A stretch of DNA of 64,000 bases from Beroe forskalii (Eukaryota > Ctenophora > Nuda > Beroida > Beroidae). Of this stretch, positions 14,544 to 53,907 are shown piece by piece. The notes beneath the pieces are model-generated. The model had not been told where the DNA came from. It saw nothing but the letters and a program-made list of their open reading frames with translations, and made no database searches. How positions within the stretch are numbered: the first letter of the stretch is position 1; the number at the start of each line of letters is the position of its first letter. The DNA is taken from contig WFMF01000445.1 of NCBI GenBank assembly GCA_011033025.1, positions 80,937 through 144,936 on the forward strand, given 5' to 3'. A program made the translations under genes and the position numbers.

Positions 14544-49538
<34,995 letters not shown>

Positions 49539-49755
49539 CTAGCACGCCCCAGGTAGCTATACGAGTTCTTCACTTCTTCCTCTTTAAATATTCTGATACT
49601 CTTGATCTAAATAACCATTGTGATAAGTTGGATTTTGAAGATATATCAGCTTGGCTCTTTCTATGTTATACCTGAATCTCTCCTGAATTCTTTGATAGTC
49701 CCCTGGAATTAACTTTGATCCTCTCCTGTATTTGTTAAATCAACCTATTTTCCAG

Positions 49756-50410
49756 TGACGAGGGATCAGTAGAAGATATGTTTGAAAAACGACCCGTATC
49801 CTCCCTCCTCCCCACCCTTGCGATGAGCAGTTCACGGCCCGTGTCGGCGGAGATGCCGCCACGGGACCAGCCGGTGGTGGCGCCACCCCGGACTGCGACC
49901 CTCAACCGACCCCGCACCACACCCCAACCTCCCCCAGTGGACCTGGCCACGTCTAGCTCTAACAACGCGTTGTACGAAGTGCCACCAACCCACGACTCAC
50001 GCGAAGTCATGGTAACGCCACCCGCGGGTGGTAGTGGCACCATAGCAACGCGTGATAGTGACGTCATAGCAACGCGTGATTTGAATGATTTAACTACATT
50101 CGATGACGACGATGACTTGATAGCCATTGCGGGTGCAATAACCTCGAACCTAGAGTCACGTGGTAACGGCACGTTACTGCGTGACAAATCACGCAACGGA
50201 ACTTTGTCACGTGACAACACGATAACAACAACGGTTACGTCACGTGATACTAACGTCAGCGAGCGTGAACCCTCACATTCATCATTATCTTCTTCTGACT
50301 TTCGACACACGGGGACCCCATTGATAGCAGACTCTGACGAGAAGCAGAGTAATCTGCTGCCCAGTCCGACAGGCAGTGACATTTATGAAAATCTTCTCCC
50401 CCTTAGATAG
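49756..50410 (+). CDS. Candidate readthrough or alternative C-terminal tail exon of the phosphatase
   Basis: An open stretch behind a good acceptor (TATTTTCCAG at 49746-49755). The preceding exon runs past its UGA to a donor, CCCCAG|GTAGCT, at 49552/49553 in phase 2, and this exon opens in the complementary phase. Translation gives LARPSDEGSVEDMFEKRPVS and 200-odd further residues to TAG at 50408-50410. The tail is rich in Pro, Ser, Thr and RD pairs. It has PPRTATLNRP and TTPQPPP (possible SH3 ligands), YEVPP (YxxP, Crk-type SH2 site) and IYENLL (YxN, Grb2-type) near the C-terminus. An 8-residue duplication (IATRDSDV/IATRDLND) is present. No known LAR receptor has such a tail, to my knowledge. 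Confidence 0.6.
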
Positions 50411-52449
50411 CACTAAACTGTGATTTTCGTTGACGGAATTTCTGTTTGCCTTGAGGATTTACCAACCACAAATCAGCTCCAGAAAATTTAGGAGACTGCG
50501 TGCTGATTGTAATCGGCAGCGATTTATCTTCAACTCATATAGGATCCTGCAAGTTCTTTTCAGTGACCATACTGGCCAATCAGAGCGCAAGTTGACAGTC
50601 CACTCGCGCGCCGATTGGTCAATATCAAAGGGACCTTCGCGAAAGCTAATACTCCACTGATGGTGATATTGGTGGAGCCATGGAGTCCTGTGGGTAAACT
50701 GGAACGGTGTCGCCTAAAAATAATTCTGGCAGTGGCAGAACTTGTTTTATATAATATTATGGTATGTGTTGTGCCGTGAAAATTATGTATGATACTTACA
50801 ATATAATGCTTTGTAAATGTGGAAATTGATGTAAAAGAGTAGACTCGAACTGATGGAAGGGGTCATACGTTTAAACTATTAAGTTTTGAGCACTAAATTC
50901 CGAGCATTAATGATTTACAGGTTATTTATTTGAAACAGATCATTTTATCTGCTTGTAAATTATTTTTCCACAAATTCTATAACAGAATTTAATGAACTTT
51001 TAGATTATACGGCAGACTGATGGCCTAGCTGAGATAGTTTGGGGCCAAAATTTTTAAAGCTCCCCAAAATACAATGATGCGGTAATATTGCCAACCCCAT
51101 TGAATAAGAAAGTTAGAAAATGATTGCATTAAAGATTTCTTTTTTCGGCAGTCTAATATGCGACAGGGAATTGGGAATATTCGCCAAATTTACCTTGTTC
51201 TTATTTCCAATTTTCTGCGTCATTCTCGGATATCCTGTCACATCTGTTATGCATGATCATTAAGTTTTATCCAAAATATGTAACTGGAAGGGCTTCAGAG
51301 CAGCAGGATTTTCTTCTTCACCATGTCTGGCACAATTCCTACTTATCAGTTGTTTTTTATTAAAATAAATTCGGCTCCCTTCAAAATTTTGGCATTTGTT
51401 TTAGTACACTAGAATTCGAACAGTAACGCGGAGAATTTCTAATTTAAATTATTATTTTCGTATATAATTTAGTTATTAAATTCAAGCACTACGGGAGCCA
51501 TTTTTCAATAATTTTTATTGATGCAGATTAGTTTAACATATCTTTTGATTTATTGAAACTTAAATATTTTTATGAGCTTTTTGTTTTATCAGTGAAGAGG
51601 TTTATGTTTGAACAACATTATACTTTGTAAGTGATCCCTGAAAATTTCCCTCATATTTGACAGGATTGAAAAACGCGTTTTTCTTGTTTACCTGTCGAGA
51701 AACCCACAGCCCGGTTCTATTCCATGTCCAACTTTTTTTTACCATTTTAGTGCTTCCATTTTTACTAATGAGCACACAAATCAGTAGCACCCTGCTATGT
51801 CGACCTTTTGAGGCGCGGCATGTTTATGACACCGCGCTTGGGTACTAGTTTTTGCGGCGCGTGGCAGCGCGCAAATGTACTTTTAAATGCATTTGCAAAA
51901 CATAGTGAAGCACATTTGCGCGCTATCAGTATCACGCACGCTAAAGTACCCAAGCGCTGCGCCACAACAGCTGGTTGAGTCACTTCGGTAACCGTATGTG
52001 GCGTCTCGACTTTTTGACGCGCATTGATACTTTTTGCGGGCGTCCGTATTGATACATAATAGCGTGCAAATGTGATTTGCGCTTTGCGTATCACTACGCA
52101 CGCCCACAAAAATTATCCATCATCCATGCACTGTCAAACGTATAGCAAAGAGTACTCAGGCGTGACGTACAAATACGCCGCGCTTCAGAGTTCAGAATGA
52201 AAAAGTCGAGACACCTTTTGCCTTTTTAAGATACAGGTACACCAATACAAGTCATTAAAACTGCATTTCTTACAACACCAAACATTTAAATAAAATTATG
52301 AATCATAAAACAATAATGGATACTTAACTGACTATCGTTTGAAATAAAAGTTATTTAAATGCACAACTTCAAGCTGAGTACAGATCGTATTATACATGTT
52401 TCTACGACCTATGGCCCGTTTCCCATACTAAAGGGAATTACGGGCAGGA
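50411..52449. other. Phosphatase 3' flank and intergenic spacer with foldback
   Basis: Presumed 3' UTR followed by intergenic DNA. An AATAAA-like word occurs near 51363, but no polyadenylation site can be fixed. 51831-51960 is GC-rich and foldable: GCGCTTGGGTACT at about 51834 pairs with AGTACCCAAGCGC at about 51944, and GCGCGCAAATGTAC pairs with GCACATTTGCGCGC. Related GC-rich sequence continues to about 52110. No gene is seen. Confidence 0.5.
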
Positions 52450-53907
52450 CTATTTGCCCACACGTTTCTCTATAGTGAGATAGTTCTGTACAGTCTTCAA
52501 GAAGTGTGAAGGAGAGATGAGGTAGCAGGTTGGCATAGACAGGATCTCAGTGAGGTGAACAGGCCACGGTGGGTACCCAGCGAGGGTGTTGACAGTGCCG
52601 AACTTTATCATTAGCTCCGGGTGTGAACCAGTGAACACCTGTAGTTGGAATTTAGATGTTAGATAAGCAAAGCTAGATAAGGTTGCCATGAATTTAGAAC
52701 TAATTTAACCACCCAGCATATGAAAGAATGGAAAGCCAAACACGAAAATCCGAATCAGCTATTCAATGATAAAACTAACCTTTTGATACGACTCGAAATT
52801 GACTTGTGTTATCTCAGTCACAACACCCGACACGAGATCCTTGGCGATGTCTCGAGCTGCATGATATGTTGTTCAATGAGTTAGAATTAATGACAGATTC
52901 ATCAGCATGAAAATAAGGGTTATTTTTGTAATGTAAGGTATTCCATGGCACAGTATCATGTATTCAAACAGGGCAAATGGTCATAAATGAAGCGTTTCAA
53001 GAACCTAATTGAACATCAATTTAGCATTAAATCTACCTGCATGAACGAGGTCTGTTCTCCCGTTCTCCACACTCACAAACTTAATGTGAAGTGGGTCCTG
53101 TCCCACACCCTTCCCTCCGGAACCAGTCCCAGGGGGTGACTTCTTGCAGTCCCGAGTGAAGTCAGAGTAGTATTCACGTAGCCCGGCATCTATCTCAAGC
53201 TTCTGCTGACGTAACTTCCCGTAGTAGTCGTAGAGAGATATCGTGGTAACTCCTGAATTGGCGAAGATTCAAAATTGGGTAACTTCAAAACTGGTTAAGT
53301 TCAAAATTGTACTCTCCCTTGGTTCATGGTTACCACTCTTTTCCCTCAACGAAACCCCAACTTACCACTGTTTTCTCGCCCGTAATTCCCCACCTATCCT
53401 CTCAACTATTATCCCCAGTCCCCACTTACCGAGACATATGCACCACACGATGGGTTTCACCAGGTCCTCAATCGGCACATTATCCTCCAGAAACATGAGA
53501 GACACGTGACCTGGCATTTTGCCGAGGGGTTTAGCGTGGGAAAGGAACACGTCAGCGTTCCATTTTGACTCCCGCCACCATCTGAGGAATGTGAGGCGTT
53601 ATTAAGGGTGTGAAAAATTTTCAAAGTCATGTTTTGGAAAATCTCAAACCCACAGTAGGTAAATATGCTAATTGCTTTGACTGTGCAGAATACTGTGGCT
53701 GCAGGTGAAGCTCGAGAGAATTTTAAGTGAACTGAGCATTCGTGCACTAATTCAATGAATTAAATTCTGATTCAAACTCAGCAGAACTAGAAAGTAGGAA
53801 GTCAGCTAAAACCTCGCGATGTTGAAGCAGCACTGAGCCACCACTTGCAGTTGACAGTAAGTGTGTAGGAACATGTGGATGACGAACAGGAACCCCTCGT
53901 AGATCAT
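52450..53907 (-). CDS. NUS1: NUS1/NgBR-like subunit of dehydrodolichyl diphosphate synthase
   Basis: Non-catalytic partner of DHDDS in the ER complex that makes the polyprenyl chain of dolichol for N-glycosylation. Exons: 53813-53907 (ATG at 53905-53907), 53430-53581, 53037-53252, 52780-52856, 52450-52638. All are GT-AG, total 729 nt including TAG, 242 residues. Recognisable segments are LGKMPGHVSLMFLED, PIVWCICLGVTTISLYDYYG, HIKFVSVENGRTDLVHAARD, MIKFGTVNTLAGYPPWPVHL and the end EKRVGK. The GPVxxxxGFxPWxxRLTEIxSLP-like block and the C-terminal RxG motif, which helps form the active site of the heterodimer, are diagnostic. The N-terminus is shorter than in vertebrate NUS1, so an upstream exon may be missing. 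Confidence 0.88.

Follow-up and report, generated by a model that had tools for sequence, protein, structure and literature searches.

Does translation of a ctenophore LAR-type receptor phosphatase always end at its stop codon, or do some ribosomes pass the stop and add a tail? The question arises in the window, by which we mean the whole 64,000-nucleotide stretch of Beroe forskalii contig WFMF01000445.1 that was analysed, contained in an assembly of 216 Mb and 1134 contigs. An earlier note on this DNA had described UGA-CUAG at the end of the second phosphatase domain (D2) and had proposed that readthrough adds SH2 and SH3 docking sites to a minor isoform. As shown in Table 1, TGA and CTAG do adjoin each other at this position.

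Table 1. Coordinates of the features at the 3' end of the LAR-type gene (positions in the window; a slash marks an exon boundary).
Feature	Position	Strand	Evidence or remark
LAR-type receptor phosphatase, 41 modelled exons	28268..49252	+	Open translation exon by exon
Last D2 exon: C-terminus, stop and 14 nt behind stop	49455..49552	+	
TGA stop then CTAG, readthrough-type context	49536..49542	+	TGA 49536-49538, CTAG 49539-49542
Intron behind stop, CAG/GTAGCT ... TTTTCCAG/	49553..49755	+	Donor score 7.98
Tail exon: completes split Ser codon, then 217 codons, TAG 50408-50410	49756..50410	+	Exon translation; relatives P0121, P0122
ATG, would-be start of separately translated tail	49778..49780	+	First ATG, 22 nt into exon
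First tail tyrosine, motif YEVP	49973..49984	+	YE[V/I]PP in 3/3 tails
Second tail tyrosine, motif YENL	50384..50395	+	DIYENLLPL in 3/3 tails
First AATAAA behind stop	51364..51369	+	ATTAAA at 51128

The gene model consisted of the 41 exons in Table 1, the last D2 exon and the tail exon. The 41 exons encoded Ig and FN3 repeats, the transmembrane segment (exon 44590-44859), D1 and most of D2, and 40/41 had GT donors. Additional N-terminal exons were indicated by tblastn matches near 14770-19294 with P0001, the PTPRF-like protein of Bolinopsis microptera. Tandem PTP domains were detected by Pfam as PF00102 in two stretches of D1-D2 (E 3.1e-163), and the closest solved chains by sequence were those of PTPRS and LAR. 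With D2 and tail together as the query, P0001 and the Mnemiopsis leidyi protein P0002 ranked first at 88% identity each, and the other 118 proteins among the best 120 of 7960 matches were 49-53% identical. Relatives named PTPRF-like or PTPRD-like stood at the top of the matches listed. P0003, a pseudoscorpion protein high in the same list, showed a doubled phosphatase region by eye and no tail. The window protein was 62% identical to P0001 in the ectodomain, 89% in D1 and 88% in D2; the Ig and FN3 content of the ectodomain was deduced through the 62% identity from the precomputed Pfam list of P0001, which has both. Judged by these comparisons, the gene belongs to the LAR-type receptor phosphatases, and among receptor phosphatases in general it comes closest to PTPRS, PTPRF and PTPRD. 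Another phosphatase domain, 43% identical to D2, was found in the same genome at locus L002 (G000:C224:282930-283643). It lay in one open frame of 475 codons and was intronless over the domain, unlike the LAR-type gene of the window.

With respect to P0001 and P0002, the LAR-type gene showed three oddities at 44.38-45.48 kb. Its frame apparently shifted twice relative to the orthologues in 44383-44720, just before the transmembrane segment, once at a threefold ATACC repeat and once in a G-rich stretch. D1 exon 45307-45663 ended CGG/CTAAATAAG, the sole non-GT donor of the 41 modelled, with CTAAAT in place of the expected GT donor and an in-frame TAA directly behind. This exon was without the GS that precedes DYINA in P0001 and P0002; GS or GT stood ahead of every DYINA copy in 156/206 compared proteins having DYINA. 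Either assembly errors or genuine alleles could account for the oddities, and the D2 stop, whose position is confirmed by relatives, is not affected by them. No second copy of 49129-50410 was found in the genome beyond the window's own, and a search with 44300-45770 returned, besides the window's own copy, a single match at 79% over about 85 bases.

The last D2 exon ended GGT TAC TAT TGA CTA GCA CGC CCC AG/GTAGCT, with GYY at the end of the protein. TGACTAG occurred at 2 of the 3007 TGA triplets on both strands of the window, the LAR stop included. The C-termini of the relatives, compared at the protein level, were VESQVDNLGYY in P0001, VESQVDSGGYY in P0002 and LESQADGYLYC in P0123. The last of these came from a 1572-base metagenome contig, probably of ctenophore origin, and its D2 was 77% identical to that of the window. 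Among 242 homologous proteins compared, 213 of the 233 with a recognisable last-helix motif ended 24-31 residues past it; of the other 20, 17 matched the motif far from their own end and 3 had longer ends. By eye, the long C-terminal ends of three fish PTPRA proteins bore no likeness to the ctenophore tail. The fact that P0001, P0002 and P0123 also end at the TGA site indicates that it is the ordinary LAR C-terminus, and these proteins and the 213 homologues agree with the earlier statement that LAR-family proteins end about there. Three folds of the region behind the stop gave z-scores of 0.14, -0.22 and 0.76, that is, no RNA structure. No SECIS was detected in 49400-52500, where none of 13 Rfam matches up to E 10 reached the gathering score. 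At 51832-51990, Rfam microRNA models matched both strands of an inverted-repeat stretch, all below the gathering score; it resembles a palindromic repeat element, not a microRNA.

To score splice donors, we used a weight matrix built from the 40 GT donors of the gene's own model. CAG/GTAGCT, 14 nt behind TGA, reached 7.98 against 4.4-12.6 for the model donors, which are in-sample, and GT sites scoring at least 7.98 occurred at about 0.001 per base. The three phase-2 GTs ahead of the stop scored -1.44 (49472), 2.40 (49478) and 2.53 (49502). Since all three fall below the weakest model donor, no convincing phase-2 donor precedes the stop, which bears out the earlier reading of this exon; the in-frame run behind UGA to CCCCAG/GTAGCT was likewise found, closing at a strong donor in phase 2. 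Skipping of the last D2 exon (49252 joined to 49756) created a stop at the junction, and with intron 49553-49755 retained the frame stopped after LARPR. Neither AATAAA nor ATTAAA was present inside this intron, nor anywhere from the stop to 51128. D2 mRNAs therefore probably continue into the tail exon.

The tail exon follows TATTTTCCAG and is open to its TAG in the phase that matches the donor, as the earlier note had stated. An ORF as long as that of the tail appeared in 1/2000 dinucleotide shuffles of the exon. With a codon table taken from the gene's own model, the tail frame scored 0.045, against -0.41 and -0.33 for the other forward frames, -0.26, -0.045 and -0.37 for the antisense frames, 0.461 for the gene's own exons (in-sample) and -0.704 for introns. 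The GC content of the exon was 54%. An antisense frame was open for 215 codons across it (49735-50382, minus strand), and scored lower in codon usage than the tail frame.

Two relatives of the tail were found in a search with the 222-residue query at E up to 10 (851 candidates). P0121 (226 aa, sources lgn and ena) was 59% identical over 95% (E 1.1e-57) and P0122 (166 aa, source ena) 45% identical over 88% (E 3.7e-24). Seven pattern matches in IMG/VR were obtained and none was confirmed as a relative; no Pfam model scored above cut-off in the tail. In the alignment the conserved blocks were PPRTATLNRP, LYE[V/I]PP, DLIAIA, DFRHTGT and DIYENLLPL. The existence of these relatives is the decisive evidence that the tail exon is coding. 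Conservation of the tail, which had been proposed as a check, was thus found at the protein level with both tyrosines kept, and by sequence the tail is a conserved protein. No listed protein held D2 and tail together: the maximum query cover was 54% among the best 120 of 7960 matches, and 56% among the 120 matches listed in a second search. This would follow if ordinary gene models end at UGA.

Each of the three tails (window, P0121 and P0122) contained exactly two tyrosines, the same two, and ended in YENLLPL[R/K]. Disorder-promoting residues made up 76-77% of the tails, a disorder-like composition. YENL presumably fits the SH2 domain of Grb2, and YExP that of Crk-like proteins. Docking of SH2 proteins by the tail is a predicted function, supported by the conserved motifs. 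PxxP was present once in the window's tail and absent from P0121 and P0122, and a role for SH3 domains is therefore unsupported. The docking proposal accordingly kept its SH2 half, with both tyrosines in conserved SH2-type motifs, and lost its SH3 half; YEVP and YENL held in 3/3 tails, whereas Pro-rich docking, with a single PxxP, was weak.

Readthrough gave the best account of the locus, because an ordinary stop site is combined with a conserved in-phase tail and with no listed D2-tail protein. We put the probability that the UGA of the LAR-type gene is subject to programmed readthrough at about 0.6. The lack of RNA structure behind the stop and a tail codon usage weaker than that of the other exons weigh against it, as does the Met near 49778 at which P0121 and P0122 begin, which fits a separate ORF as well. 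This start is expected under either reading, because ORF callers need one. The contigs from which P0121 came measured at most 3348 bases. If they were LAR mRNAs, a piece of D2 might have been expected among the matches listed in the second search, where P0123 was the only D2 fragment of at least 75% identity; P0121 therefore does not speak for a joined mRNA. That the tail is a separate protein, begun at the ATG of Table 1 after trans-splicing of a leader to the 49756 acceptor or by reinitiation on a two-cistron mRNA, is unlikely. Ctenophores trans-splice leaders onto many mRNAs, in Hormiphora at least 56% of Iso-Seq reads according to passages of PMC8527503, and for this reason a transcript of its own might begin at 49756; the tail ORF opens with the exon's first ATG, and the two relatives begin near it. 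A genome scan for leader ends with a 17-base Hormiphora-type pattern (up to 2 mismatches) gave 78 and 69 matches, no clear excess over the 49 and 60 of the controls. The phase match, the strong donor behind the stop and UGA-CUAG would then all be coincidences, no NCBI or UniRef record was among the hits of the tail search although LAR is annotated in two ctenophores, and operons are given as unreported in ctenophores in passages of PMC7986045.

Still less likely is alternative splicing that leaves the stop out and links D2 to the tail, either by a weak donor ahead of TGA or by way of an exon that escaped recognition. Joining at any of the three early phase-2 GTs would keep the frame open into the tail, but their scores lie below those of all model donors, their use would delete residues alignable with solved LAR-family D2 structures, skipping of the last D2 exon meets a stop, and no D2-tail protein was among the matches listed. 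A TGA that is edited, polymorphic, an assembly error or read as selenocysteine is quite improbable: the three oddities at 44.38-45.48 kb lie in the same gene and speak for such a change, whereas the position of the TGA is the C-terminus in three relatives and selenocysteine decoding would lack its SECIS in 49400-52500. The GC content and the long antisense frame might be expected of an accidentally open 3'UTR exon rich in GC, yet the protein-level conservation in P0121 and P0122, with both tyrosines, makes a chance ORF very unlikely, the least probable of these explanations.

If the UGA is read through, the tail exon would be spliced to the last D2 exon in the LAR-type mRNA, with removal of the intron that starts 14 nt behind the stop. 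The majority of ribosomes would terminate at UGA, giving the ordinary receptor with its GYY end, and a minority would decode the UGA of UGA-CUAG with a near-cognate amino acid and extend the protein by a disordered tail of 222 residues. The tyrosines of YE[V/I]PP and YENL, once phosphorylated, would recruit SH2 proteins, presumably Crk-like and Grb2-like. It is possible, at slightly less than an even chance, that programmed UGA-CUAG readthrough in ctenophores sets the share of LAR receptors carrying a tail with two SH2 tyrosines, that it thereby acts at the level of translation as a switch between an adaptor-recruiting phosphatase and a plain one, and that this arrangement is at least as old as the ancestor shared by the three species with tails.

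The mechanism of readthrough itself is already known. According to passages of PMC4132726, UGA-CUAG gives efficient readthrough in four mammalian genes, OPRL1, OPRK1, AQP4 and MAPK10, which share with the ctenophore gene the seven-letter stop context and conserved coding sequence behind the stop. As described there, measurements of readthrough exist for the mammalian genes, whose motif is kept across vertebrates, whereas the ctenophore case is predicted from sequence; the extension is 13 residues in MAPK10 and would be 222, across an intron, in the ctenophore LAR. MDH1 and LDHB, as presented in passages of PMC4207609, yield peroxisomal isoforms by UGA-CU(A) readthrough, and the MDH1 signal was reported there to be conserved back to the cnidarian Hydra. 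The likeness lies in UGA followed by CU(A) and in a short motif behind the stop that gives some of the molecules an added function, which is organelle targeting in MDH1 and LDHB and a presumed phosphotyrosine docking tail on a receptor in ctenophore LAR.

Among receptor phosphatases, PTPRF, PTPRD and PTPRS resemble the ctenophore gene in their Ig and FN3 ectodomain, transmembrane segment, tandem D1-D2 and C-terminus right after D2; the ctenophore gene differs in having a conserved coding tail exon behind the stop. Tyr789 at the C-terminus of PTPRA binds Grb2, according to passages of PMC7959691. Both proteins have near the C-terminus, behind D2, a tyrosine with N two places on (YANF in PTPRA, YENL in the ctenophore tail). 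The tyrosine of PTPRA stands in an ordinary ORF, whereas the ctenophore YENL stands behind a stop and its Grb2 binding is putative. The main text of PMC5100048, on abundant readthrough in flies and mosquitoes, did not contain the whole words phosphatase, Lar or ctenophore. In the literature searched, a body of papers outside which most subscription journals lie, we came upon no paper describing readthrough for any ctenophore or any receptor tyrosine phosphatase. The new points are the phylum, the length of the extension, its internal intron and a tyrosine tail on a phosphatase.

The LAR-type gene is a concrete candidate, testable by one cDNA and one reporter assay. If readthrough is true, it would be a receptor phosphatase case with a long extension spanning an intron, and one of the earliest-branching animal phyla would have functional readthrough.
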